A DNA stretch of 64,000 bases from Ypsolopha sequella. Taxonomy: Eukaryota; Arthropoda; Insecta; Lepidoptera; Ypsolophidae. Below the pieces are notes generated by a model that was not told the DNA's origin, ran no database searches, and worked only from the letters and a program-made list of their open reading frames with translations. The position numbers and the translations under genes are program-made. The stretch lies in NCBI GenBank assembly GCA_934047225.1, contig OW204012.1, forward strand, positions 2,666,001-2,730,000, read 5' to 3'. How positions within the stretch are numbered: position 1 is the first letter of the stretch; the number at the start of each line of letters is the position of its first letter. Shown piece by piece: positions 18,563-62,856 of the stretch.

Positions 18563-18893
18563 GCAGCGGTAGCTCAAGGGTAGAACGCTGGCCTCTGCAT
18601 CTAGAGATCCAGGTTCGATCCCTGGTCGGGCACGCACCAACGAGTTTTTCGGAATTTATGTGCATTGCTGAACGATGAAGGAAAACATCGTAAGGAAACC
18701 TGCATGCCTTGAAAAGCGTGTTACTAGTGCCCGAAGCACGGCGATAGGGCTCACCATCCATCACGTTGGGACGTAATATTCGTCGGTGAAACGCGGGTGT
18801 ACCGAGTGTGGACTGCGACTTGCATTCCACAGTTCACACTCGGAACACCTCTGACACCCCCTCGGGGATTCCTGTCGTGACGATATATTAACG
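18563..18893 (+). repeat. tRNA-headed SINE, copy 2
   Basis: A box 'ggtagctcaagggtagaacg' and B box 'aggttcgatccctgg' are intact. The body 'aacgagtttttcggaattta' and 'ggaaaacatcgtaaggaaac' and tail 'gattcctgtcgtgacgatat' follow. This is the clearest copy in the window and could be used as the family reference. Confidence 0.88.
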
Positions 18894-27898: not shown

Positions 27899-30800
27899 CA
27901 GTGGCGTAGCGTGCCTTGTCGGGGCCCCGTATAAAAATTTTTTTGGAGGCCCTTATATGGAGGTAAAGATTTTTCACAAAAGAAAAAAAATATTGTGAGA
28001 AGTAATATTTATTTATCACATAATTTACCCATTTTACAAATAAAAATCGAATTTTAAATATTCACTCTCCTTGCCTTTTTATCGGCAAACTGATTTATTA
28101 AATCATTTATGGCTGATGATGATTTTAGTTTTTCTGAAGTTTCTGCCTCTATGGACAATAGTGAGATGTCTGACAGCCGTTCTTGTCCCATCGAAGTTCT
28201 TAAGTAATTTTTTATTAGTTTTAATTTTGAAAAACTTCTTTCTGCCGTTGCGGTTGTAACTGGAAGGGTCAAGAATAAAAAGCATGCTGTGATTACCTCG
28301 GGAAAACTGGATGCAAGACTATTGAATTTTACTAGCAATAATTCAATGAGTTCTTTAATGGAATAAATTTTTTTAATTTCAGAATTTAAGCATGTTTTTA
28401 GAGCCTTTAATTGGTCACAAAGATTAAGTGAGATGTCTTTACTGTATTTAGCAGACAGTTTTCCGGAAGCGTTTAATATCTCTTCGCTTGAAGAAGATAG
28501 GAGTTTCTCCGGTTGTAATATTTCGAATATACTACTCAGGTTGCAAAGGCTCTGAAATCTTTCTTTAGTTTGAGAAATTAATATATCTAAACAGCAATAG
28601 TATACATTGACTTTGAAATAGGATTCCGGGTCGGAAATTCTCTCATCTTGTGATAACTCATCAAAAAAACGCTTTGTTATCTTTCGCCTACTGTTTTTAA
28701 AAACAGTTGTTACCCCCCACTTTTTTGCTAAATCTTTGGATTCATTTAGCAAACTATTAAATGAATTCTGATTTCTTAATTGGCACAGTCTATTTAAAAG
28801 ATTACTTAATAAAATACTAGATTTCTGTAAGTCATTATTTTCATGCTGTAGAGCTTTAGAAACAGGATTAATAATTTCAAATAGTGAAGAAAAAAATGTA
28901 ACGAGCACTAAGAAATCAAAACTCTCTAAAATATTAATTATACTTTTACATTCTTCACGTTCATCTTTTTTATTTGAAATTAAATTTAGTTGGTACAAAG
29001 TTTTCATGATTAGTAAAAAATTTTTCTTTACTGCTAATAAAGCGTCGTTCCTAGAAGACCATCTGGTAGGACATACCTTTTTAAGGGTAATCAAATATTT
29101 TTCAGATGAATCGTCACTTAGCATAGCCCAGCGTTTTATACTATTGCCAAAAAAAGTATATATTTTTTCTAAATTATCGAAAAAAGTCGATACTTCACGA
29201 ACATGTCTCGCAGCATCGTTCAAAACCAAGTTTAAAGCGTGCGCAGCACAATGAACATAATCGGCATTTGGAGCATGCTCTTTTATTAGGGTTTGTAATC
29301 CTCCATACACACCCGACATAACATTTGCTCCATCGTATCCCTGTCCTCTACATTTAGTCAAATCAATTCCATATTCTTTAGTCAAATTTAAAATGACAGT
29401 TTTCAGACCTGCAGCACTGCAATCGGTTACTGCTATGAATCCTAAAAAGGACTCACAGATTTTTATTTCTTTAGGCACATTATCATTATTTTCTGTAACC
29501 GAGATATATCGAAAAACTACAGATAGTTGGTCAATTTTTGACAAGTCTTGTGTTGTATCCAGAATTATTGTCAGAAATGGAGCTTTTTTAATTTCTGAGA
29601 TAATACTGTTCCTAACGTTAGTACCAAGCAAACTAATAATTTCGTTTTGAATCGTAGGGCTTAAATAATTTATTTCACCTTTCGGTTTTAAAAAAAGTTC
29701 TTTTAAAGTTGCATCATAGTTAGATAGCAGACGTGAAATTGCCATAAAATTGCCAGAATCAGAATCATGCCCCCTCAAAGGTAGATTACAAGATACTAAA
29801 GTAATTATAACATTAATTATACGATGCAGTACATCTCTCCAGAATGTAATTTTACTATCGATTTCACTTTTCAATAGAGTATCGATGGTATTTCCTTGCA
29901 ACCAATTATTATAAGAGAGTGAGGCACTAATATGCTGCTGTGACTTTTCATGGTCAAGAATAGTTTGTGTGAAATTGCTTCTAACCGAAACACCGTTAAC
30001 CCAAGCAGAGGAGTACGATTTGTTTTGACGATCTGCTAATAACCAACAGAAGTGACAGTACGGTTTGTTTAAAACGTTAGAATAACATAACCATGGTCTT
30101 ATAATTTTTATGCCTGCCTGATTGAAATATGAATAATAATAAGCTGAAAAAGGTCGGTTATTTTCTGAAACTTTTGGAAATGGTCCTTGTGGTTTAAATG
30201 AACCCAATTTAAAAATTATTTTTCGTTCGCATTCAGTTAAATTGTCACCAAAATTTCCTCTATCTGATGAAATTATATTACAATCTGCATTATCTGCAGA
30301 TATATCAGAATCGTTGACTTGGGGTTCCTCGATTTCTGGATGGACATCCGATAAAGTATGTGCTTGGCTTTCTTCTATTTCCGGATGGATATGTGACGAA
30401 GAACATGCTTCAGAAGAATCTAAAAATAAACGAGTAATTGTTAAAAAATAAATACGAATGCTTTGATACTAAACTAAAAAGAGTTATATATAAATAAATA
30501 ACGTTACTAAGGGTCACAGTTAGAGAGTGTTCAGTTCAGACGCACACAGATTCTACGCGGATTGTGCTCGTACCTATTAGTAGATACAAAATCACCTGCA
30601 GCCCGTCCGTGCATTACTATACACCTGCGTGCTATTTAAACGCAGCGCGTAGTGTAGTGGCCATACAAAACGAGAACCCGAAAGCGAGTCTGCACATCTG
30701 AAGTTCTCAACACGCAATTAACGATACGATACGGACTGATAAACAAACAACAAAACAAATCGATCCTATAGATAAGTTAGAATTTTGTTTTTTTTAATCA

Positions 30801-37371: not shown

Positions 37372-37461
37372 GTTGGAAAGGGCTTCTCTTCTCAAGAGCA
37401 ATCCATTGATACCCATAAAACACCATATAACAGAGTGAAGCGGTGCCGGGAACTTAAAAGA

Positions 37462-37534
37462 ATGAAGGCGTCGGAGCTGATCAACGATGGCCCCAGTACA
37501 TCGGCCGAGCCTATGCAAGTGGAGTTACGTACAC
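37462..37534 (+). CDS. Candidate 5' exon of the cassette gene
   Basis: ATG at 37462 opens MKASELINDGPSTSAEPM...QVELRT and stops at a good donor, ACAC|GTATGT (37535). Phase 1 matches the acceptor phase of exon A (40260), and the joined codon C|GT would be Arg, giving ...LRT-R-IKQEILDT. The frame is open ~90 nt further upstream (KTPYNRVKRCRELKRMKA), resembling the basic Q/N-R-C-x-E-Y-R start common in lepidopteran nuclear proteins, so the real exon may be longer. The assignment depends on phase fit and position only. Confidence 0.35.
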
Positions 37535-40259: not shown

Positions 40260-40393
40260 GTATAAAACAGGAAATTCTGGACACAGATGAAAATCGACCA
40301 ATGTCAGTAAAGCAAGAGCCAAATCAGGAACAGACAGAAACATTGAAGTCCATTCCTATAAAAATTAAATGTGAAGAAGCCCCTATAACTTCT
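40260..40393 (+). CDS. Cassette gene, exon A
   Basis: 134 nt between tttttacag (ends 40259) and GTAAGT (40394). Phase 1 in, phase 0 out: two bases then 44 codons, IKQEILDTDENRPMSVKQEP...IKIKCEEAPITS. Acidic; carries psi-K-x-E motifs IKQE and VKQE, typical of SUMO acceptor sites in transcription factors. 28 of 44 residues are identical to exon A' at 55919, and the upstream intron also matches ('gtgaaatgtattga', 'gctgatggagactgc', 'ttgatataacctt'). Unknown family. The exon is followed at once by a 9-kb transposon in the intron. Splicing is inferred, not shown. Confidence 0.8.
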
Positions 40394-40960: not shown

Positions 40961-41221
40961 TATTCAGCGAATCTACCATGGAGAGGAAAAAATCATAAAA
41001 ATTAAGAAAAAAATGTGGTAGTGTGAAAAAAAAAATTGCACAGAATACCAAAATATAATTAATAATCATCCAACTCAATGTCAAGGCCAAAGATTTGAAG
41101 GAGTGAACAGTCAAGTCCAAAAACAAAATAGTGAGGGTTCTGTCGTTTCAAATTTTGAGTCTAGTAGCAATAGTGTATCCTGTAGCAATGTTGTAGCTGA
41201 CAATATTACCTGTGATTTTTA
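40961..41221 (+). pseudogene. Decayed ORF near the left end of the 9-kb element
   Basis: An ATG (40979) opens MERKKS, stop, KLRKKCGSVKKKIAQNTKI. A shift leads into CTEYQNIINNHPTQCQGQRF...NSEGSVVSNFESSSNSVSC...DNITCDF and stop at 41221. Basic start, then polar low-complexity. Probably the N-terminus of an element protein; no domain recognised. Confidence 0.45.
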
Positions 41222-41760
41222 AGAAGTTGTGTCAGAAGTGATTAAGGCGAGAATTATTAACGTATTAACGTGAGAAGACGAAATTTGACGCTCTTCACCC
41301 CGCGTAAATCCTTATCCCTCTCGTTGCTTTTGCAACGCGCTTTTTCGCGCGGCACGCTCTATATTTCATAGATAACTTGTCTAAAAAATATGATTGCGGA
41401 CGAGTTGCGATATACATAGGTATTATTAAATATATAGGTACATACGAGTATTGTTAATACTTGCTATGTGACATGTTCGGGGAAAAAATTGTAGTTGTCA
41501 AAATTCGAATATAGTAATTATCCATTATAGCTAGACAATGTCCATAATAAATATACCTACAATAATTTCGATGACCTACAAGCATTTTTAAATATTTGTT
41601 ATGTGATTATTATACGTCCGGTAAAAATGCTTGTTGTAGGCAAAGTCGGAATAGAGTTATTATTCATAATGGCAATGTGCAAAATAACTGACAGGTACCT
41701 GACTTATTGTTTTTCAGTCTCTGCAATAGTTTTTCTAGTGTTGGATAGATCAAATTGATA

Positions 41761-41916
41761 ATGGCTTCGGAAAAAATAAAACTGAAACTGATTGTAATGG
41801 ATTTATTTGATGTTTTTAGAGAAATGAATTGGTATACCAAAAAAAAATTGTCTGAAACTGTTGAACCGAAAAATATGAAAGAATTATCAATTACAGAGTA
41901 TTACGTAAATATTTAA
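41761..41916 (+). CDS. Short ORF in the 9-kb element
   Basis: ATG to TAA, 51 codons: MASEKIKLKLIVMDLFDVFR...KKKLSETVEPKNMKELSI... A second open stretch without ATG (about 41967-42164: SEYVYKVISTPKTDVILTPQ, DIACKLVCITYKGEM) follows in another frame. Both look protein-like but are unidentified. Confidence 0.35.
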   Translation: MASEKIKLKLIVMDLFDVFREMNWYTKKKLSETVEPKNMKELSITEYYVNI

Positions 41917-42749
41917 GGAAAACTATAACGATTAAAAAACAATAATAAATCTTGAAAATAAAGAAAATATAAAAAATTCTAATTATTACAAACTCGAATG
42001 AAATCATCATTTCTGAATATGTATATAAAGTGATTTCCACACCAAAAACGGATGTTATTTTAACTCCCCAGGATATTGCGTGTAAATTGGTGTGTATCAC
42101 ATATAAAGGAGAAATGTATGTTTTACTCTTGTTACATACATTTTTAAATAATAAAACAATGTAAATAAATCTAACTAAGTTTAACTTAGTTTCAACTCGG
42201 TAGATAACCTTGGCAATTATCAGAGATTGTTTTTAAGCCACCAACCAGATCTTTTGCAACGATGGTGCTCTTTAACGTTATTCATTTTGTTTCCTTGAAA
42301 TTGATTTTTTCTGAGCGGTTAAGCCCATTTCTCAACGCATTATATTGTAGCACTACATACATAGTAGTTAATAAAATATTTTAATTAATAACTTAAGAGC
42401 TTTAACTTTTAATTAGTACTTAATTAAATTACTCTTGAGATCTAAATTTAAATTTTTGATAAAGTAAATAACATAATTAAATCTCTAAATAGAATTTGAG
42501 ATAACCCTAGCAGACAATTATAAATTAAATAAGATGATGTCTACAAATTATACATACAATTATATATAGGAAAGAAAAAATAAACTTGTAAACTTTGTTG
42601 TTTGAATACGTTTTTATTTTTCTTATAAAAAATCGGTATTTAAACTGACATTCTCGGCAAGAGTATTTAAATTCACTGGTTCTCGGTATTGTGCAGGACG
42701 CCGAAAGGTCATCTATTTGTCTTCATGTTCAGTGTCGGTATTTTCTAGT

Positions 42750-42900
42750 ATTACTTAAAGTTCGTCATTGGCCAATCCATAAGAAAGAAGATGATTTATT
42801 TTAAGCGAGCAATTTATTCGCAGTCGTTCGGGTGCAGGAATTGAGTTCTGGTCTTTAACAAATCCTTTGGCACCTTTTTTGGGCCATTTAAGTATGCCAC
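42750..42900 (-). pseudogene. Coding-like scrap, minus strand
   Basis: Reads GGILKWPKKGAKGFVKDQNS then PAPERLRINCSLKINHLL and YGLANDEL stop. No family recognised. It may be the end of a second, oppositely transcribed ORF of the 9-kb element. Confidence 0.3.
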
Positions 42901-43037
42901 CATTTTCTCATTGAGATGGCAAAATGCTTAGTTGTAATTTCTCCTTTCAATCATCTTCACAATTTTGAAGGGGATTCTGAAAAGTAAAACATAGTTTAAA
43001 CATTGAACATAGATGGGTACATACGTAGATATCGGTG

Positions 43038-43280
43038 CATCATCACGAAATGAATCCCCGAGGGGATTTCAGAGGTTTTTCCGAGTGTGGACTGTGAAAT
43101 GGTAGTCACAGTCCACATTCGTATATACCTAGGTTTCACTGATTACGTCCTAGCAGGACGGGTAGTTACTGAGCCCTATCGCCGTACTTCGGACACAAAC
43201 AAACCGAACACAAATGTGCCCCTACGGGATTACATTTACTCCAAAGTATTAGTCAAGTAATTAATCACTAGGCCACAGGG
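43038..43280 (-). repeat. SINE, inverted, partial
   Basis: 'atcacgaaatgaatccccga', 'tccgagtgtggactgtgaaa' and 'gagccctatcgccgtacttc' are the reverse complement of the 3' half of the SINE at 18563. The tRNA-like head is not evident. Confidence 0.75.
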
Positions 43281-44525
43281 ATGATCAACATAGCTATAAC
43301 TTTTATTAATAAATAACCTACCCGAATGCTAAAAGATTGAAATACAAATAATTCTTGTTATTGTGTTAGTATAAATGTAAATCTATACCTATAAAATATT
43401 TTAAGCTCGTGTCTCATTCCGTCAACTGAACAACTGAACACTAATTCTTAGAATCGTAGTTATCGTAGACGAACAAAGACAACACAGGTGCAAGCGATGA
43501 CGCTCAGCGCTAACACACCCCGCGCGTCTCTCCACTCTCACTCCACCCACTTAAATAAGGATGCAGTTGTGCAAAAGAATAAGAAGAAAAATACTTCGTA
43601 CAGACAAAGTTCTGATGCTTATGCTTTTAAATAAAAGAACTTTAGTTTATTATTAAACTTCACCAATAATTGTTGCATTTAAAAGTTAAATTGTTTTTAA
43701 ACAAAATATGTAAGCAATGAATCATGTGCAAAGAGTACATTCAGTGTGGGAATAAAAAGCGAACAGTGGTGGAGGGAAAGAACCTTAAATATTATGGATA
43801 TAAAAAATACTTTATTACAATAATTAAGAAAAGGGTTTTTAATCCTAGTTTACTCAAAAAAAAACTTACATGAGGAATGAGAAAGTGTAAAAAACAATTT
43901 ATAGGTGTTTTTAGAATTCAACGACGGACTCCTAATACGTTAAGGGGGGCTTATCCCAATTTTGTCTGTTTTCAAACTCATTTTAAAGCATCAAATAGTT
44001 ATTTTTAAAATCTGAAAAAAATATATGTTTTAGATACATCTTTTGTGCAGTGTTTTTTGTGGTTCAATTTGCGAGACGTTACACTTTGCTCGATCGAAAA
44101 AAAATCCGAAACTATGTCGATTTTTAAGATTTTTTTCGTTTTATGTAACGTGTACTTAACCAAATTGCATGAAAATTGCAGATAATTAAAGTAAAACTAT
44201 TGTACTAATAACTTTTGTGGTTACTTTTTTTTTAATGAAAATCGTTTTTTTTCCCTTAATTTAAAAAGAAAAATTGATTCGCGACTACTCGGCGAGCGGC
44301 CGCCAGTTGCCCGCCAGCGGCTGTCGAGGCAAGACCTATGTCAGTTTTCTGAGCCCTCGTTCCCCCTCACTCGCCTCGAAGCTCTAATAGAGTGTACTAT
44401 CATTATTTAAATAATCGTGTAAATATACATCAAACTATCAGTTGTGTGTACATGTAAATAAAAATCATTTAGTTGTATCTTGCTTGGATGTTTAAAAATA
44501 AAAATGGAAACTAGAAATAAGAAGA

Positions 44526-45005
44526 AAAAAACCGGCCAAGTGCGAGTCAGACTCGCGGACCTAGGGTTCCGTATTGTGGATGATAAATTTAATTTACTAT
44601 TTTTTTCGTGAATTTCTCAACTGCTTTATTTTTCCTGTAATCTTTACGTAAACACCATTATCATGATTTTTTTCATAATGCTCGGTCTACCAGTTTTGGA
44701 GATAAAGACATACATTTTTTTATATCAATGTATTTTTACAATCAGCTTTTTGATATCTATAATTTGATACCCATATTGTATTTTTAGGATAACATTTTTT
44801 AGTTTTGTTTTGGAAATATTTTAAAAAATTTCAATCATTTTTTACATTGTGATATGTGGGCAAATAAATGCTATTTTTGTGCCAAATTTCATGTCTTTAT
44901 CTTTAAAGGTGCTAAAGTTATGAGGCTGTGACATACGGACGGATGGACAACGGAGTCTCACCATAAAGGTTCCTTTTGTACCTTTTAGGTACTACGGAAC
45001 CATAC
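44526..45005 (+). repeat. Repeat R, subtype with 'ctagggttccgta'
   Basis: 'accggccaagtgcgagtcag' to 'gtaccttttaggtactacgg'. The interior ('ttcctgtaatctttacgtaa', 'atgaggctgtgacatacgga') matches 51664-52408 and 56170-56432 rather than 882, so it is a separate subfamily. Confidence 0.8.
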
Positions 45006-45344
45006 AAATCATCAAATTTGAAAGTGCTGAAGATAAGAAAACAATTCTTTGAAACTGTAACGAGATGTTTTATTGATCGTACAGAACAACCAACTTTTGA
45101 AATTATGCAAAAAATGTAAACAACTCTTGAGTCCGAGTATAACTGTACAACAGTAAAATGTAACAGTACTTACTCTTGCAGTCAGACAGAATGTATAGAT
45201 ATATAATGTACATATTATGTAAATATATAATATATATATATATATATAAAATAATGCGATTGTATCTACGTATTATTATTTTTTGTAAGCGTAAGTATGA
45301 ATCGTATGTAACTAAGTGATTAAATAAAATTTCTTAACTTCAGT

Positions 45345-45638
45345 TTATCAAATCTTCGTACTGAGCAGGGCACCTTCGCATCGAGACAATGTATAGAGGC
45401 AACAAGTACGACAAAACTCGATAAAAACAGTAATTGGTATTACCAGGTACAAGGACAGCTTTACGTGACAGAACGGCGATTATGTCTCTTTGGCATTTGG
45501 GTAGGAGATAATAAACTTGTACATATTGAACGCATTACAAGAGATGATGATTTTTGGATGACGAAGATGGAGAGGAAGCTAATACAATTTTATATAAAAT
45601 GTGTAATACCAGAGATAGTGAAAGTGATAGTGAAATGA
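45345..45638 (+). pseudogene. YqaJ-type exonuclease fragment
   Basis: A 97-codon open frame without ATG. Contains NSNWYYQVQGQLYVTERRLC, LFGIWVGDNKLVHIERITRD and DDFWMTKMERKLIQFYIKCV, followed by IPEIVK. The YYQVQGQLxVTxRxxCLFxIW core is the C-terminal signature of YqaJ-family (lambda-exonuclease-like) nucleases found in animal mobile elements. The N-terminal catalytic D-(x)n-ExK part is not readable upstream, where repeat R and stops intervene. Just after PE the reading shifts: another frame runs NTRDSESDSEMSLFATEH... to 45733. Non-functional as it stands. Confidence 0.75.
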
Positions 45639-45977
45639 GTTTATTTGCCACAGAACATATAAAAAAAGAAGACACAGTACAACACAAAACAAAATTGCAA
45701 AAAGGAGCAAGCTTATCAAATGCTACACGTTGAAGTAACTTGCAGCTCTGATTTTCAGTTTGCCACATATGAACAAAACACAATAGCAAATAGAAGTAAA
45801 ACATAATAATTAATAATTAAGAATTTTAACTAGTACAATTATACTATTGACTAAGAAAATAATGAATAATAATAATTTATTCATAAAAATAATATTGAAT
45901 AATTGAAATAATATTGAAAACACACAAAAAAAATTATTAATTTGACAAAGAATTACAAATTACAAATAAAATAATTA

Positions 45978-47020
45978 CAGTCTATTCCATTTACGAGGTT
46001 ACATTTGACACTTCTGAGAACGTAACTCTGCACGTTTCACATAAATTGATAAAATAAATAGTCTTTGTTTATGACAGTAAATCACCGTTTGAAAAAACCA
46101 CAATCAATCCAAAACATTATACAATTAATTCACAAACATAATCAACGTATTTTTTTTAGATATCGTGCTCAAAATAAGTATAACTTTAAAATAAAATAAT
46201 ATTTTACTGAAAATACGCGTTTACGTTCTATGGTTTATTTTTTACTTTTAAACATAGTGACGTAGGTCAAAAAATCTCATAAAATCGGTTAGTTAATCGA
46301 GTATTCTCTTGTGTACCGAGGTCGTAGGAAATAAAAATCTACTAAAAATATGGTCCACCTCGCAATCACCATGGTTACCATGGCAATCACGATCAGCCAT
46401 ATTGTTTGTCTGTTCAGTACGGTGCAGAAGCCTTGTATACGTTGCGTGCGTGTGTTTTCTTCTTGCTTGACCACTAAAAGAACAGTGTTGGGCAGTCAAG
46501 CGCGGGAGTTTGTGGTACGCCTACAACATTAATTTGAATGTGAGTTTCAGAATGGTAGTCCACTCTTTCGTTACCAGTCGAAAAACTGTTTCCCAAATAA
46601 GTAAGGAAAAGCATGGTAAAGATATACCAGAAGATAATAAATTAAAATCGCCACTTAAGAAAAAAGTTAGAAGGTCGATAGTCACACAAACAAGATGCTG
46701 TCGTTGTTGCAAGAAGCATGCTATAACGTTACTGCTGCGAATTGGAATAGTGTGGTTTTACGAACATTAAATCTAAATTTCGCTGATTGGGACCGAGATG
46801 TGGATATCGATGCCCTAATAGATAACCAAATTATAATAAATACGGTGGATCCTACAGATGATGGTGAGGGTGATGACGACGATGGTGACAATGAATATGA
46901 TGCAACGATTTTGAATAGCGAGCACGCATAAGTCGCATGCTGATAAAATTTAAAATAATAGTATTTAATCAAATTAAAAAACTTGACTAAGTAACTTTAC
47001 ATCGTAAATGGAATAGACTG
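45978..47020 (+). mobile_element. Tc1/mariner-like element, internally deleted
   Basis: TIR cagtctattccatttacga / tcgtaaatggaatagactg exact, flanked by TA (45976-45977, 47021-47022). It has short N- and C-terminal transposase pieces but no catalytic core: an internal-deletion derivative of about 1.04 kb. Confidence 0.88.
46549..46931 (+). pseudogene. Transposase remnant (Tc1/IS630-like), core deleted
   Basis: The upstream frame (RMVVHSFVTSRKTVSQISKE...KSPLKKKVRRSIVT) resembles the helix-turn-helix start of insect IS630-type transposases (TVSxISKE...PxKKxxR). From 46695, in another frame, it reads LLQEACYNVTAANWNSVVLR...DIDALIDNQIIINTVD with an acidic end, like their C-terminus (xLIDxxIINxxD). 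Everything between, including the DDE/D core, is gone. Confidence 0.6.
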
Positions 47021-47207
47021 TAATGGATGTCATGCAAAAAAAAATTAGAGAGAAAAGACATGTTCAGAAATGGAATGAATAAAAATAGAAATTTACAAAT
47101 AAAATAATAAAATAAAACAACAACATGGTATAGTAAACCCACGGTATACACGCGGGATGCCTATAAGAACTCTGACTTTGCATGATAATAAAAATAATAT
47201 TTAATAA

Positions 47208-47369
47208 GAAAACGTGGATCCTTCACCTATCTCAGAGCAACAATCAAGCTATGACACCTCGCAACCGGGTCCTAGCACTAGCACACATACAACTGAACAA
47301 ATCGTGCGACTAAAAATACCGAATTTAAAGTATGAAATCGAAAATACTTCACCAAAAATAAAAAAATAG
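47208..47369 (+). pseudogene. Ser/Pro-rich ORF tail in the 9-kb element
   Basis: 53 codons without ATG: ENVDPSPISEQQSSYDTSQP, then GPSTSTHTTEQIVRLKIPNL and KYEIENTSPKIKK stop. The style (PGPSTS linker, basic end) suits a transposon protein terminus. No family recognised. Confidence 0.35.
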
Positions 47370-48639
47370 GTGCGACGAAGAGCGAAGCAAGAAGGAGCGA
47401 GTTAGGTTTACATGTAATATAAAATAAGGAGCCGAGCGAAGCGGAAAAAAATTGGGTTTTTTCGAATCCATTTACTCCACTATAACATCATCTGCGTATT
47501 TCATTTTTTGGTAAATGTTTATTGAGTATTTGATTAAAATTCTCACTGAAGGAAAATGCGATTGGATGAAATTTTCTTGATAGAATTAAATTCCAAAAAT
47601 ACCTCTAAATTGTTTTATTTTTTCATGTTATTCTGAAATTCTAACTAATTTCATTGTCAAATTGCATTCAAAATGTGGATATTATGTATTTGTAAAGTCT
47701 CCTTGAAAAACTTTTTGACAAAATTGCTTAGTACATTTTATATTAATAAAAAACTGACTTTTTTACTACTTTTCCACGAATCCGTCCCACTCGCACTGAG
47801 GGTTTTTTCGCATATGGAGTAACAGGGACGCTAAAACTTTTACGTAGGGCCTTAAAATGAAATTGACACTAAAATTGAAAATTGTTCGCCTGAGAATTAA
47901 ACTCAACTCAAATTTACAGTTTACAGTTTAGTTTACAACATTTTTATTCGCTCACAATCTTTCGCTCACTTAGTATTTTAGTACGCTATATTCAGTATTT
48001 TTGACACCATATATTTGAATTTATATTCGCTCATTTAAATACTACGCCTATAATTTTAGTTTTAGTGCCGTCGAAACCTAAATTATTCCAAAGTAATTTA
48101 GCTTCTATTTTTAATACTTATGAACTATTTTGTAATAAACAAAATTTAGTTTTGACAGCTCCTAGATTACAATGAAAGCCTTCAGAGTCAGCTTTGTTGG
48201 CTTATATGGTTACCAAGTGTATTAAATATTTTTAGCTGTACTTCCAAATGTTTTACAAGAGCGTGCTTAGATATTACTCATATGATCCAATGTAATAAAC
48301 TCCCCTATTTGTACTAACTCGGTTTTTTAGTAGGAATATTTTATGTTGGTTCATTTATCGGAATCAATTCTTATTAGTACGAAGTGCAGTTACTGGCCCC
48401 GAACCTATTTTAATGTACGGCGGTCGGTGTCGAGTCACGTGAGGTCACGATTATAGCCGCTCAGTTGCATCGTAAATAAATACGTCGCGGTGAACTGGCG
48501 GGGGCTGAGGTAGCGATAAATACCTACAGGTCCCGGATAACCTGCCCTTAATATAATAGGATATATAATACTCCTTTTTATACACTTGGGCTCTTAAAAG
48601 GAGACGTAAAGTGCTGGTGTACGTCCAAAAGAGTACAAT
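47370..48639. other. Interior of the 9-kb element, nothing recognised
   Basis: AT-rich sequence with short purine-rich runs (gcgaagcaagaaggagcgag). No ORF or palindrome stands out. Confidence 0.4.
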
Positions 48640-49512
48640 TATGCGCCAATACACCAACTGTAGGACCCAAAGGTTTACAACAGCGAATACTAGCGCCTTC
48701 GTACGGTTTAAGCCGATAGAGCGGACATAGTAAAGCTCTGAAAGCTGTTGTAATAAGACGCCATTAATATTTTGATTAATGCTTATCCTCATTGTTATTG
48801 CAACATTTTATCATCATAAATATGTAAGAATTCTGCACTTTACACCACCATTTCTTACCTACGACCCTAATAAAACGACCAACAAGTCTGAAATATCTTG
48901 AAAAAATTAAACGTAGTTTATAACCCTAAATATAAATGTATTTTTTATATTAAAAACTGCATATATTGTGAGCGCGTAAGTTTTTTAGCTAAAATATATG
49001 CATATTTTTACAATAAAATGATACTGGCACTAACATTTCACGTAAATAAAAGGATAAACCAGTATTAAAACTTACCTGTGTATTTATTTTTATTATATCT
49101 TCTGCTGTGCTGTCACTTCTTTACCATGCAAATATGATCCACTTTGTTGAAAATAATAATATCACTTCTATAGAATCAATATAGAGCCATGAAATATATT
49201 TCAGAGATAGAGTCGCGCTGAAATACGCTGAGAGCTCTATAGTCGCGCTACAAGAACTTATTTAAGATCTCTAGGCACATACTATTGCTCTTGCAGAACC
49301 TCTGTATCGCCGTACTAACACACATATACGGCCACTGTAGGGCGATTGTAGGACCGATAGCTCTACAAAGAGGGGCCTCTTTTGGGGTTAAAGCGGCGCT
49401 ATAGCCGCTTGTAGAACCACTGTAGGGCTTCTCTATGGAGCCTATGCCGTAATGTATGACGCCTCACCGGCTTCTGTACGGCTACTTATAGAGCTTGGGT
49501 GCTACTTGGGTA

Positions 49513-49960
49513 GATAAACACGGTGAGATTCTTGGCGGGTCTGCTGACATTTCGAAGGCTTTTGACAGGGTTTGGCATGAGCACATAACAGCCTGGTCTA
49601 CTAAGTAAGCTTCCTTCTTACAGGGTTCCTCTTGGCCTGTGCACTTGGATTGCTGATTGCTCAAAAACTCGACACAAATATTAAATTAACATTAATAAAA
49701 TGTTATGGATATGGATATTAATGTTGGAGTTCCTCAGGGGTCTGTTCTCTCTGCAATTCTTTTTTTGCAGGACCTAAACAATCTACTGCAATCAAATATA
49801 TTCAGTTATGCAGAAGACATCACTGTTATGGAGATATAGATAGACTGATTGACAGTGTAAATAAACTGCTATCTTTAAAAAAAACACATCTAATGATCAT
49901 ACTAAACAACTTTCTCAAAGAATCATACATGGGCAAATGAAAAATGTTCTCTCCATACTA
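49513..49960 (+). pseudogene. LINE reverse transcriptase remnant
   Basis: Codes SADISKAFDRVWHEHIT, a gap with stops, then DINVGVPQGSVLSAILFLQD and LLQSNIFSYAEDIT (YAED where active enzymes have YADD). These are the RT palm motifs of a jockey/R1-like element, badly decayed and compressed. It begins exactly at the right end of the 9-kb transposon. Confidence 0.75.
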
Positions 49961-50142
49961 TTTATAAATAAATTTGGGGAGCAAGGCGAGCCCCCAAGTT
50001 TTATCAGAAATATGATATGCGGAGGAGTTTATGCCAGTGAAATGAGTGGTATAAAATGTGGAGACATGGAAAAGGAATGTAGGACTGGCCTTATCCAAAA
50101 ATAAAAGTATGTAATTTTTATCTACATGTATTTTTTTTTCAG

Positions 50143-50220
50143 AATGTGGTGTTTGGTGATGATGGCTTGGCACATAATAGTTGCAGTATAATAAAAACTG
50201 AAGAAGAACCCGAATACATT
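50143..50220 (+). CDS. Cassette gene, exon B
   Basis: 78 nt between ttttttttcag and GTGAGT, phase 0 in and out: NVVFGDDGLAHNSCSIIKTE then EEPEYI. Acidic, with the psi-K-x-E motif IKTE. Exon B' at 60323 has the same plan (DIVVCDD..., MKTEDEPEYI) and an identical gaacccgaatacatt|gtgagta end. Function unknown. Confidence 0.78.
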
Positions 50221-53839: not shown

Positions 53840-54011
53840 TATATTTCTTACACCATCTTCGCCTTATCCTCTATTTTACATTATCTTCCACCCAAAGGTT
53901 GTCTGGAAGAAATCGCTTAAGCGATAAAACCGCCTATTGTACCCTCTCTGTTAAAATAACTTCTTGTTTTGGTGCACAATAAAGTGTATTTATGTTATGT
54001 TATGTTTATGT
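53840..54011 (+). repeat. LINE/SINE 3' tail abutting exon C
   Basis: 'cacccaaaggttgtctggaa', 'aaatcgcttaagcgataaaa', then 'cacaataaagtgtatttatg' and (TTATG)n. Same family as 50880-51125 in the other orientation. The T-rich (ttatg)n end runs directly into the exon C acceptor tttcag. Confidence 0.7.
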
Positions 54012-54017
54012 TTTCAG

Positions 54018-54099
54018 AACAAACGAGACTATCTAGAAATAGGATCGGAACGATCCACTGAACCAACTATATCAAACCCAGCATCTGTATCATTATCAG
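54018..54099 (+). CDS. Cassette gene, exon C (shortest form)
   Basis: 82 nt between gttttcag (54017) and GTAGGA (54100). Phase 0 in, phase 1 out: NKRDYLEIGSERSTEPTISN then PASVSLS plus one base. The joined codon with A' (G|AT) is Asp, giving ...SLS-D-IKREVLDT. Serine-rich, with SExxTEP. The frame remains open through the following repeat array, so the exon can extend by 25 codons for each later donor used, up to 54774. Function unknown. Confidence 0.65.
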
Positions 54100-54794
54100 G
54101 TAGGAACTATTTACATATATCGGAACGATTCACTGAACCAACTATATCAAACCCAGCATCTGTGTCATTATCAGGTAGGAACTATTTACATATATCGGAA
54201 CGATTCACTGAACCAACTATATCAAACCCAGCATCTGTGTCATTATCAGGTAGGAACTATTTACATATATCGGAACGATTCACTGAACCAACTATATCAA
54301 ACCCAGCATCTGTGTCATTATCAGGTAGGAACTATTTACATATATCGGAACGATTCACTGAACCAACTATATCAAACCCAGCATCTGTATCATTATCAGG
54401 TAGGAACTATTTACATATATCGGAACGATTCACTGAACCAACTATATCAAACCCAGCATCTGTGTCATTATCAGGTAGGAACTATTTACATATATCGGAA
54501 CGATTCACTGAACCAACTATATCAAACCCAGCATCTGTATCATTATCAGGTAGGAACTATTTACATATATCGGAACGATTCACTGAACCAACTATATCAA
54601 ACCCAGCATCTGTATCATTATCAGGTAGGAACTATTTACATATATCGGAACGATTCACTGAACCAACTATATCAAACCCAGCATCTGTGTCATTATCAGG
54701 TAGGAACTATTTACATATATCGGAACGATTCACTGAACCAACTATATCAAACCCAGCATCTGTGTCATTATCAGGTAGGAACTATTTACATATC
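54045..54794 (+). repeat. 75-bp tandem array, 10 units, each with a splice donor
   Basis: Units start every 75 bases from 54045 (tcggaacgattcactgaacc). Each carries the end of exon C, the donor tcag|gtagga and 'actatttacata' of the intron. Units differ only by a synonymous A/G at one site (gtA/gtG), plus a C/T in unit 1 (Ser/Phe). The length is a multiple of three, so every unit keeps the frame. Very recent expansion. The 3' side meets an inverted SINE. Confidence 0.97.
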
Positions 54795-54950
54795 GTCACG
54801 AAATGAATCCCCGAGGGGGTGCCAGAGGTGTTCACAAGTGTGAACTGTGACATTCAAGTACACCAACTTTTCACCGAAGAATGTTACGTCCCAAACGTGA
54901 TGATTGGTGAGCCTTATAGCCGTAGGTTTTTCGGGCACAAATGGACACAT
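54795..54950 (-). repeat. SINE, inverted, partial
   Basis: 'tcgtcacgaaatgaatcccc' is the complement of the SINE tail, and 'cccaaacgtgatgattggtg' with 'gagccttatagccgta' matches the body of 18563. It is inserted at the last unit of the 75-bp array. Confidence 0.75.
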
Positions 54951-55060: not shown

Positions 55061-55519
55061 TTCACCGACGCTTCACCGGCGCGGCAGAGGCTAAGCGCAA
55101 GTTTTTTGTTTATACAACCTATATATGAATAGTTATTTGTTATGCAAGGCTGTTATTTGGCTGTTATTTGTTATTTGGCGCGAGTAGGTACTTGTATTGA
55201 AACCTGAAGAAGCGAAGGATTCTAGGATTGAACCACGAGCGAAGCGCGTGCTTCGAAAGGTACTTGACGCAAAATAACTTTTTCTCACTTTGTTAATTGC
55301 TATTTTTATTCTGGTCTCTTGCTTTCTAGCAAAGTGCCACCACATAAATTATACTTGTGTTCTTCATTTCACAATATTCTAAATAATGAAATTTGTTTAA
55401 ATTCCGATTCTATGTTCAAAAAGCCATCTGCCAGGACAAGTTAATCTTTTATTAAATAAATACAAATGACAGAAATAAATTTCTATGTTTGAACACTTGG
55501 CGATTTAGGAGATATAAAT
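55061..55519. other. No feature recognised
   Basis: Intron sequence between the SINE and the snap-back tRNA repeat. AT-rich, with no motif-bearing frame. Confidence 0.4.
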
Positions 55520-55801
55520 TAACATTATATCATTGCAGTATAGAAACGCAGAAAGAAAAGTAAATCTGGATGTGAGGAGCTCTGAACCGGGAATCGAACC
55601 CGGGATCTCTCGCTTGCCGGGCGATTGCTCTAACCTCTGCGCTATCCAGGTCTCAACACAACTCGTGAATTTACCGATGTGCTTTCCTATACTGCAATCG
55701 CCCAGTAAGTGAGAAGTCCCGGGTTCGATTCCCGGTTCAGAGCTCCTCACATCCAGATTTACTTTTCTTTCTGCGTTTCTATACTGCAATGATATAATGT
55801 T
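55520..55801 (-). repeat. Snap-back tRNA-derived SINE, second type
   Basis: Arms 55520-55605 and 55717-55801 are near-perfect inverted copies (taacattatatcattgcagt...gaaccgggaatcgaacccgg). The tRNA-like unit lies on the minus strand at 55580-55652. As at 16215, an inverted copy of the T arm plus body lies 5' of the tRNA-like head. Confidence 0.75.
55580..55652 (-). tRNA. tRNA-like head of the snap-back SINE (pseudo-tRNA)
   Basis: Minus strand: A box 'tagcgcagaggttagagc', anticodon-arm-like 'cgcccggcaagcg' and a strong T arm 'cccgggttcgattcccggt'. The acceptor ends (gacctgg / ttcagag) do not pair. Treated as a pol III promoter of a SINE, not as a functional tRNA. Confidence 0.45.
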
Positions 55802-55918
55802 AAGTTAAATACAACTAAGATGTAGGAATACAAACATTTTTCCGTGTGAAATGTATTGATGCTGATGGAGACTGCATTGATATAACCTTGTACATACTTT
55901 GCACCATTTCTGTTACAG

Positions 55919-56052
55919 ATATTAAAAGAGAAGTTCTGGATACAGATGACAATTGTCCAATGCCAGTAAAGCAAGAGCTAGATCAGGTTCAGACTGAAGC
56001 ATTGGAATCAGTTCCTATGAAAACAGAATGTGGAGAAGCCCCTACGACTTCT
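55919..56052 (+). CDS. Cassette gene, exon A'
   Basis: 134 nt, the same length and phases as exon A: ttctgttacag before, GTAAGT after. Two bases then IKREVLDTDDNCPMPVKQEL...VPMKTECGEAPTTS. psi-K-x-E motifs IKRE, VKQE and MKTE. Diverged tandem duplicate of 40260-40393, including flanking intron. With B' it forms a second cassette downstream of exon C. Confidence 0.8.
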
Positions 56053-56633: not shown

Positions 56634-56675
<42 letters not shown>

Positions 56676-58129
56676 AAGTGACTTACTATGCTATTGGCCG
56701 TCTGGCCTTAACAGCTTTACCCGGACAAAAGGAGGGAACGCCGAGAACGTTCACCTCCTGTGATTTTTAATCAACAATCGCTGAGGGCCCCCAGCTGGGG
56801 GACCTCGGCTCAGGACGTTGATGGTGTGTGCTCTATTGGAGAGAAGCGACCAGGTATATACCTGTATCGCGTGTCAAGTTGTCTGAGGTAGAGGCGTCGT
56901 TGACGCAAAGCGTTTGCTGAAAGCTTAGTGGTTGTAGTGACCGGGGCGGAGGGCCTCGTGTCTAATGGGGATGAAATGGTGTTTGAAGTGTTACGTCTCC
57001 TACGTCGGGGACGGTGAATGAAAACAGGGGCAGTCGCTGAGGTATTATCGTCGGGGTTGTTGGGGGGGTCGGATGCTATAATCCGGGCTGTAATGTCGTC
57101 GTCAGGATCTAATAATACGTGACGCGGGCGTCGTTTGCAATATTTGAATGAAGGATCCGCCACATACTCTGAAGCTCTCCTAATCAGTGGATTCCTATGG
57201 TTTGATGAGGTATCGAAGAATTTCCTAGATGCCTCCCTCATATAGTGACGAACAGTAGGGACACGAAGGTCCTTGTGAAGATTATAGTTGCGGACGAACC
57301 ACGGAGCACCTGTAGCCCTACGCAAAAACCTATTTTGAATAACCTGTAGTTTGTTAATATGATATTTGGAAGCGTGGGCAAATGCCACACTAGCATAAGT
57401 GAAGACTGGTCTGATGCAAGTGAGATATAGCCTTATTTTGCTGCGAAGGGACAATTTACTTCGAGCATTTACTAGTGGGAATAGCCTACTCAAGAAGAAG
57501 GCTGCTCGGTCTCTGACAATTTTGATGTGAGGGCCAAAGGTGAGCCGACTATCAAGTGTTACCCCTAAGTATTTGGCTTGTTTGGACCATGGAACTGGCC
57601 GGCCAAAGAGCGAGAGACTTGGTAGTGAATTATTACCACCAAGCCACCGTTTGAAATATATCGCTTGACTTTTCTCAGGATTGACCTCTATCCTCCATTT
57701 CCTAAACCAATCACCTAGTTTGGATGCTGCGCTCTGCATGCGGGACCCTATGATCTTCATACTATTGCTCCTCAAGTAGAGAGCTGTGTCATCTGCGAAA
57801 AGGGCAAGTCGAACGAATTTATCACGAGGAATGTCACTCGTGTATAACGAAAATAGCAACGGAGACAAGACTGACCCCTGCGGGACTCCTGCATGTATCG
57901 GATGCGACGTAGAGTGGACTCCTTCGACACGATACCTAAATTTACGATTCGAAAGGAAGTCACGAACAGTTAAGACTAGCCTATCAGGAAAGCCGAGGCT
58001 GAAAAGTTTGTATGTCAGTCCGTTGTGCCAGACTTTGTCAAATGCTTTAGCGACGTCGAAGAATAGCGCTGCCGTACCCGCCTGCTTGCGGCGAGTGAAG
58101 CCAGAAAGGACGTATTCTGTGATGCGATG
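56634..58129 (-). mobile_element. Jockey-like LINE, 5'-truncated, copy 1
   Basis: Perfect 12-bp TSD tcaatcattcga (56622-56633, 58130-58141). The poly-A tail appears as ~40 T at the left edge. The long pure tail and clean TSD mark a recent insertion. Copy 2 at 61635 shows no difference I could see over ~1.2 kb. Confidence 0.95.
56810..58127 (-). CDS. Jockey-like reverse transcriptase, C-terminal ~440 residues
   Basis: Open from the truncation point to the stop at 56810. Palm motif A LFFDVAKAFDKVWHNGLTYK with the first catalytic Asp; motif B HAGVPQGSVLSPLLFSLYTS; motif C ALFADDTALYL with the Asp pair; then YLGVTLDSRLTFGPHIK, the thumb and connection (RPVFTYASVAFAHASKYH) and a basic tail (HRPRRRRRNTSNT). 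The endonuclease domain and N-terminal RT fingers are missing, so it cannot retrotranspose, although no frame damage is visible. No RNase H, as usual for jockey. Confidence 0.9.
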
Positions 58130-60322: not shown

Positions 60323-60397
60323 GATATAGTGGTTTGTGATGACTTGGTACAAAACAAGTGCGACGTAATGAAAACAGAAGATGAACCCGAATACATT
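60323..60397 (+). CDS. Cassette gene, exon B'
   Basis: 75 nt between ccttttttttcag and GTGAGT, phase 0/0: DIVVCDDLVQNKCDVMKTED then EPEYI. One codon shorter than exon B. The psi-K-x-E motif MKTE is kept. No exon C' was found in the remaining 3.6 kb, which is filled by nested transposons, so the gene should continue past the window. Confidence 0.78.
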
Positions 60398-61634: not shown

Positions 61635-62856
61635 TTTTTTTTTTGAAGTGACTTACTATGCTATTGGCCGTCTGGCCTTAACAGCTTTACCCGGACAAAA
61701 GGAGGGAACGCCGAGAACGTTCACCTCCTGTGATTTTTAATCAACAATCGCTGAGGGCCCCCAGCTGGGGGACCTCGGCTCAGGACGTTGATGGTGTGTG
61801 CTCTATTGGAGAGAAGCGACCAGGTATATACCTGTATCGCGTGTCAAGTTGTCTGAGGTAGAGGCGTCGTTGACGCAAAGCGTTTGCTGAAAGCTTAGTG
61901 GTTGTAGTGACCGGGGCGGAGGGCCTCGTGTCTAATGGGGATGAAATGGTGTTTGAAGTGTTACGTCTCCTACGTCGGGGACGGTGAATGAAAACAGGGG
62001 CAGTCGCTGAGGTATTATCGTCGGGGTTGTTGGGGGGGTCGGATGCTATAATCCGGGCTGTAATGTCGTCGTCAGGATCTAATAATACGTGACGCGGGCG
62101 TCGTTTGCAATATTTGAATGAAGGATCCGCCACATACTCTGAAGCTCTCCTAATCAGTGGATTCCTATGGTTTGATGAGGTATCGAAGAATTTCCTAGAT
62201 GCCTCCCTCATATAGTGACGAACAGTAGGGACACGAAGGTCCTTGTGAAGATTATAGTTGCGGACGAACCACGGAGCACCTGTAGCCCTACGCAAAAACC
62301 TATTTTGAATAACCTGTAGTTTGTTAATATGATATTTGGAAGCGTGGGCAAATGCCACACTAGCATAAGTGAAGACTGGTCTGATGCAAGTGAGATATAG
62401 CCTTATTTTGCTGCGAAGGGACAATTTACTTCGAGCATTTACTAGTGGGAATAGCCTACTCAAGAAGAAGGCTGCTCGGTCTCTGACAATTTTGATGTGA
62501 GGGCCAAAGGTGAGCCGACTATCAAGTGTTACCCCTAAGTATTTGGCTTGTTTGGACCATGGAACTGGCCGGCCAAAGAGCGAGAGACTTGGTAGTGAAT
62601 TATTACCACCAAGCCACCGTTTGAAATATATCGCTTGACTTTTCTCAGGATTGACCTCTATCCTCCATTTCCTAAACCAATCACCTAGTTTGGATGCTGC
62701 GCTCTGCATGCGGGACCCTATGATCTTCATACTATTGCTCCTCAAGTAGAGAGCTGTGTCATCTGCGAAAAGGGCAAGTCGAACGAATTTATCACGAGGA
62801 ATGTCACTCGTGTATAACGAAAATAGCAACGGAGACAAGACTGACCCCTGCGGGTG
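61635..62856 (-). mobile_element. Jockey-like LINE, 5'-truncated, copy 2
   Basis: TSD atgaagagctgc (61623-61634, 62857-62868), with two extra bases at the 5' junction and a short poly-A (10 T at the left). Truncated further than copy 1, at the GVPQGS motif. Confidence 0.93.
61780..62838 (-). CDS. Jockey-like reverse transcriptase, C-terminus, copy 2
   Basis: 352 residues identical to those of copy 1 (FADDTALYL catalytic box, YLGVTLDSRLTFGP, basic tail). Motif A is lost by truncation. Dead as an element. Confidence 0.9.
   Translation of the reverse strand: MSPLLFSLYTSDIPRDKFVRLALFADDTALYLRSNSMKIIGSRMQSAASKLGDWFRKWRIEVNPEKSQAIYFKRWLGGNNSLPSLSLFGRPVPWSKQAKYLGVTLDSRLTFGPHIKIVRDRAAFFLSRLFPLVNARSKLSLRSKIRLYLTCIRPVFTYASVAFAHASKYHINKLQVIQNRFLRRATGAPWFVRNYNLHKDLRVPTVRHYMREASRKFFDTSSNHRNPLIRRASEYVADPSFKYCKRRPRHVLLDPDDDITARIIASDPPNNPDDNTSATAPVFIHRPRRRRRNTSNTISSPLDTRPSAPVTTTTKLSANALRQRRLYLRQLDTRYRYIPGRFSPIEHTPSTS

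Follow-up and report, generated by a model that had tools for sequence, protein, structure and literature searches.

The analysis reported here concerns a 64,000-nucleotide window from the lepidopteran Ypsolopha sequella (contig OW204012.1, positions 2,666,001 to 2,730,000, forward strand; "the window" refers to this whole stretch). In this window, a 75-bp minisatellite repeats the end of a putative coding exon, here called exon C, ten times together with its splice donor, and all ten donors leave the same reading frame. A paralogous exon with a single unit, C', lies further along the same locus. We suggest that the array may be mostly silent, with the spliceosome using the first donor. The array and the exon that it extends are as follows.

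54044-54793, plus strand: minisatellite of ten 75-bp units with CAG|GTAGGA in each (Tandem Repeats Finder, unit listing and gene model).
54018-54099, plus strand: putative exon C at one-unit length, NKRDYLEIGSERSTEPTISNPASVSLS, 82 nt, entered in phase 0 and left in phase 1 (paralogue C', phases and splice scores).
54018-54043, plus strand: unrepeated head of exon C (unit listing).

The units are arranged head to tail in 10.0 copies with 99% matches, and their Tandem Repeats Finder (TRF) score of 1465 is the highest of all repeats in the window. With several copies of a unit in the 10-100 bp range, the array is a minisatellite. Each unit consists of 56 nt from the end of exon C followed by 19 nt of intron, with the donor CAG|GTAGGA at the junction. 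Donors thus follow positions 54099, 54174 and so on to 54774, the first reading TCAG|GTAGGA. A preliminary description made from the letters of the window had proposed ten near-identical units of this composition, and TRF and the unit listing agree with it. It had placed the array at 54018-54794, an interval that contains the array but also takes in the unrepeated exon head. Its claim that a single synonymous site varies does not hold, as two sites vary in the unit-by-unit listing. At about unit position 45, units 1, 5, 7 and 8 have GTA (Val) and the other six have the synonymous GTG; at the other site, unit 1 has TCC (Ser) and units 2-10 have TTC (Phe), a nonsynonymous difference. Three distinct sequences are present among the ten units, 18 of the 45 pairs are identical, and the mean pairwise difference is 0.98% per site. 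The array is young or homogenised; the very young expansion claimed earlier fits these values, but so does homogenisation.

In the 866.8-Mb genome (151 contigs), the array as query gave two scored matches, the array itself and the single-unit exon C'. Such counts are lower bounds, and very common words were skipped. Within these limits, the search does not support the unit as a dispersed satellite. Exact 41- and 35-nt stretches of the unit were not found in viral or prokaryote contigs. Pfam matches of the repeat open reading frame (IGPD, bpMoxR, LVIVD) were above the whole-protein cut-offs, but no single stretch passes on its own, and we attribute them to the repeated structure of the frame.

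Support for exon C as a plausible coding exon is good and comes from its paralogue C', from matching phases and from an in-phase zinc-finger exon downstream, in line with its earlier treatment as an exon. In the gene model, exons A, B and C are followed by A', B' and C' in a tandem triplet, with C' joining in phase 1 to the zinc-finger exon. The other exons are listed below; A, B, A' and B' were identified as paralogues, and window-equivalent coordinates continue the numbering of the window past its end.

40260-40393, plus strand: exon A of triplet 1, IKQEILDTDENRPMSVKQEPNQEQTETLKSIPIKIKCEEAPITS, phase 1 in, 0 out (paralogue of A').
50143-50220, plus strand: exon B of triplet 1, NVVFGDDGLAHNSCSIIKTEEEPEYI, phase 0 in, 0 out (paralogue of B').
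55919-56052, plus strand: exon A' of triplet 2, entered in phase 1 and left in phase 0, with C as the preceding exon (paralogy and phase).
60323-60397, plus strand: exon B' of triplet 2, entered and left in phase 0 (paralogy and phase).
66869-66950, window-equivalent: exon C' of triplet 2, unexpanded (genome search with the array).
85772-86640, window-equivalent: C2H2 zinc-finger exon, joined in phase 1 after C'.

The phases are consistent along the series: A and A' are entered in phase 1 and left in phase 0, B and B' are entered and left in phase 0, and C is entered in phase 0 and left in phase 1. C' lies 2.87 kb beyond the window end, is 82 nt long like exon C, has no stop, and differs from it at 9 of 82 exon nucleotides. 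Common to both are the donor GTAGGA, the first 14 intron nucleotides and the 13 nt before the exon, TTTATGTTTTCAG, which directly precedes the start of exon C at 54018. At the two sites that vary among the units, C' carries TTC and GTA. The zinc-finger exon has the domains expected of a C2H2 gene (Pfam zf-H2C2_2, 1e-66; zf-C2H2, 1.2e-29). Exons A and A' share 63.6% of their amino acids, with nonsynonymous (Ka) and synonymous (Ks) divergence of 0.19 and 0.45, respectively. By splice matrices not trained on this genome, the array donors score 9.40 and rank, ten tied, 17th of the 3598 GT sites in the window, and the acceptor of exon C scores 8.49 (38th of 3316 AG sites). When all open segments of 50-249 nt running from phase 0 to phase 1 are compared over the two strands of the window, splice scores as high as those of C at both ends are reached only by segments that start at 54018. 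No further copy of exon A or B was found at an E-value of 0.05 in the 40 kb after and the 20 kb before the window. A 97-residue C-A'-B' query gave four matches in the genome, all at this locus; C' was not among them, so this query is weak on single exons. A candidate upstream exon, HKTPYNRVKRCRELKRMKASELINDGPSTSAEPMQVELRT, lies at 37390-37534 and would end after 37534 in phase 1 ahead of exon A; no AG precedes its assumed start, and its acceptor score is -20.02.

As claimed in the preliminary description, the frame is open for all ten choices of donor, 75 being a multiple of three and the units holding no stop. Each of the donors leaves phase 1, the phase in which exon A' begins. The 0 to 9 blocks of 25 residues that it envisaged are accommodated as well: the modelled product from exon A to the zinc-finger stop is predicted to have 483 to 708 residues, with a single terminal stop every time. 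Though the array is thus an open, in-frame coding repeat for 0-9 extra units, this would occur by chance with a probability of about 0.21, because 309 of 485 19-nt stretches starting with GT (window 41001-50000) keep the frame open and one third of periods are divisible by three. A second forward frame is likewise open over the array (266 residues, 54043-54843), so that two of the three forward frames are open. By itself, being in frame without a stop is weak evidence.

Near-perfect minisatellites (period of at least 15, at least 3 copies, at least 95% matches, TRF score of at least 100) are common in this genome: there are six in 200 kb, taken as 20 arbitrary stretches from contigs of up to 34 Mb, and seven in the 124-kb locus, this array included. 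Three lie between C' and the zinc-finger exon, at window-equivalent 68398-68869 (39 bp x 12.1), 81788-82016 (32 bp x 7.2) and 83108-83573 (21 bp x 22.2). For an array to land on a donor, therefore, no special reason is needed and, given the chance of about one in five for an open frame, the array and its frame can both be explained without selection. The periods of the six arrays total 270 bp, or 0.135% of the 200 kb. If 100,000 donors are assumed and selection does not remove them, on the order of a hundred donors would lie in founding units genome-wide. On this rough figure, further donor-bearing arrays should exist elsewhere in the genome.

As to its origin, we suggest that a recent tandem duplication captured the final 56 nt of exon C with the adjoining 19 nt of intron, and that unequal exchange or slippage then enlarged this duplication to ten copies. 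The ancestral exon length was likely one unit, because C' has a single unit and terminates at the corresponding donor. Since C' is single-unit and has TTC and GTA, the expansion probably came after the triplet duplication, and TCC in unit 1 and the GTG variants are probably derived, as judged from this one other copy. Two dispersed repeats, for which we use presumptive names, flank the exon and the array.

53877-53987, strand unassigned: what we take to be the 3' part of a long interspersed nuclear element (LINE)-like repeat (matches 51071-50946 at 70.9%).
54794-54941, strand unassigned: dispersed repeat with a conserved edge, AT|CGTCACGAAATGAATCCCCGAGGGGG, exactly at the array end (similar-edge copies).

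Judged by eye, the TTATG-rich tail of the LINE-like repeat reaches to about 54004, some 13 nt ahead of the exon C acceptor. Copies of the second repeat with the AT edge are present at 18882, 14403 and 8618, and a copy at 43043 starts two bases later. ATCG is both the start of the unit and the junction of the array with this repeat. Such microhomology may have given rise to the first duplication, but a clean microhomology jump predicts a unit of 73 bp and not the observed 75 bp. Two other ideas about the flanks were set aside. The similarity of the exon C head to the intron part of the unit, which would make the head a decayed extra unit, was equalled by 303 of 2000 shuffled heads. Searches for target-site duplications at the two flanking repeats gave a single 7-nt match each.

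In the human factor VII gene (F7), a repeat takes in the end of an exon. The donor of intron 7 is in the first of several 37-bp repeats, and an excerpt of PMC6627357 describes only the most upstream donor as normally used. Similarly, every unit here holds a donor of exon C, itself supported as an exon by C' and by phase. The two systems differ in that 37 is not a multiple of three and downstream F7 donors would shift the frame, while 75 keeps it, and in that F7 splicing has been studied while that of the array is predicted; kinship in sequence is not claimed. In the Rogers model, tandem duplication of an AGGT segment, with AG|GT at the unit boundaries, could supply both ends of new introns (excerpt of PMC4974935). 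The array shares the AG|GT at each unit boundary with such cases (ATP2A1, the potato RNA-dependent RNA polymerase gene and fission yeast 24-nt repeats); however, these duplicate the interior of an exon, whereas here an existing exon end is duplicated and any new intron is a candidate only. Variable internal tandem repeats, minisatellites at exon-intron boundaries of human duplicated genes, are described, in the portion of PMC2812944 consulted, as altering splicing or forming introns; in contrast to our array, they have transcript support and lie in primate segmental duplications. Finally, the ratchet points of recursive splicing in Drosophila juxtapose an acceptor and a donor as AG|GT (excerpt of PMC8605326), but they are mostly inside long introns and need a cryptic exon, whereas the array would have ten in tandem at an exon end. 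Donor-bearing repeats, AGGT intron gain, boundary repeats and ratchet points are thus all already known. An in-frame, ten-fold donor array beside an unexpanded paralogous exon was not among the matches listed from the open-licence literature.

We favor, with moderate confidence, a model in which the array is mostly silent. In this model, the spliceosome would mainly pick the first donor or another of the earliest ones, and the remaining array would leave with the intron, so that the protein keeps its ancestral length and copy number is largely without effect. We favor first-donor use because human F7 normally uses only the most upstream of its repeated donors. As RNA, the initial 251 nt of exon and array form weaker structure than every one of 200 shuffled versions (z +3.45), and for this reason the donors there should be accessible. 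Several observations weigh against the model or the exons on which it builds. Duplicated donors of equal strength often favor the intron-proximal one, here the last, and the protein would then be longer by up to 225 residues; the F7 rule comes from mammals; and all ten donors score equally, by matrices not derived from this genome. Where measured, coding constraint is weak: B/B' has Ka 0.28 and Ks 0.31; the differences between C and C' fall 2, 5 and 2 on the three codon positions, with no sign of purifying selection on the peptide; and A and A' (105 of 132 nt identical) are little more alike than their upstream intron flanks (64 of 85). Alternatives to first-donor use remain real, because later donors here carry no frame penalty.

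The most prominent of these alternatives, doubtful but deserving attention, is the length-variable protein repeat that the preliminary description had raised: later donors would be used appreciably and would insert 1 to 9 additional blocks of 25 residues (SGRNYLHISERFTEPTISNPASVSL) between the linker exons and the zinc-finger region. The frame that is open to the zinc-finger stop at all ten lengths and the strong, identical donors are as this predicts, but the open frame has the chance probability given above, the F7 precedent points to the first donor, and use of the last donor would create an internal exon of 757 nt, compared with 75-134 nt for the other mapped internal exons. Splicing between the donor of one unit and the acceptor of a later unit is a different route, overlooked in the preliminary description, in which multiples of 75 nt would be excised and the junction left unchanged.

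54100-54174, plus strand: first of nine possible 75-nt introns between adjacent units, GTAGGA...TTATCAG (inferred).

Each TTATCAG|GTAGGA boundary would then serve as acceptor and donor, and 75-nt introns would leave one by one with the donor regenerated, much as at a ratchet point. We consider this improbable. As acceptors, the AGs of GTG units score 7.74 and those of GTA units 8.05, close to the weakest, A' (7.81), of the seven mapped acceptors from A to the zinc-finger exon (7.81 to 9.92), and the candidate intron has a yUnAy match (TTCAC) with its A 42 nt before the end. On the plus strand of the 124-kb locus, 12 of 391 AG|GT sites pass both thresholds, namely the ten of the array, the end of C' and 87477; both thresholds were taken from the unit, so this count is descriptive, and the matrices are not specific to this genome. 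Intron gain through tandemly duplicated AGGT segments has been published (excerpt of PMC4974935), to which 24-nt repeats in fission yeast can be added (excerpt of PMC3629103), but the latter is a soft precedent: the source, as excerpted, writes the site as AGGC, and one of its two introns disagrees with an expressed sequence tag. Moreover, 75 nt is short for an intron. Unit-by-unit removal would yield a one-unit exon at any copy number and the same mRNA as first-donor use, from which it is hard to separate without intermediates. If donor choice and removal of units at the dual AG|GT boundaries acted together, the outcome would be a ladder of zinc-finger proteins with 0 to 9 extra Ser/Thr-rich blocks of 25 residues. 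Such a length dial would be set by the fast-mutating copy number and by splicing conditions, with C' as a built-in control; we regard it as a rather unlikely combination.

It is more doubtful still that exon C is damaged and usually skipped. Repeats flank the exon on both sides, the LINE-like tail ending close to the acceptor and the second repeat abutting the array, and upstream the likeness between C and C' is limited to the last 13 nt before the exon. On the other hand, the acceptor still ranks among the best of the window, the donor and first 14 intron nucleotides are exactly as in C', and at 82 nt the loss of exon C would shift the frame in a B-to-A' join. Finally, we give very little credence to an assembly artefact: repeats are prone to misassembly, but the array is only 750 bp inside a 16.43-Mb contig, and the succession of unit variants along it (A G G G A G A A G G) shows no periodicity, unlike simple stutter.

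Several other elements are present at the locus. A piece of a reverse-transcriptase element occurs in two 1220-bp copies of 100% identity, at 56665-57884 (with RVT_1) and 61635-62854, one in each of the introns that flank exon B'; these copies are very young or homogenised. An open frame for an 804-residue hAT-type transposase-like protein (DUF4371, Dimer_Tnp_hAT) lies at 28054-30468 on the minus strand. An inverted repeat at 55512-55810, the ends of which (55512-55560 and 55810-55762) match at 95.9%, is a candidate tRNA-derived element. Another C2H2 zinc-finger open frame, 483 residues long, is present on the minus strand at window-equivalent 93724, some 7 kb beyond the zinc-finger exon.

With ten identical, in-frame donors and an unexpanded paralogous exon in one gene, this locus constitutes a natural test of spliceosome choice, in which use of the first donor, use of the last, preference for the shortest exon and unit-by-unit removal are the outcomes to separate. 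It also represents a route by which a minisatellite may lead either to a longer protein or to silence, without a cost to the reading frame.
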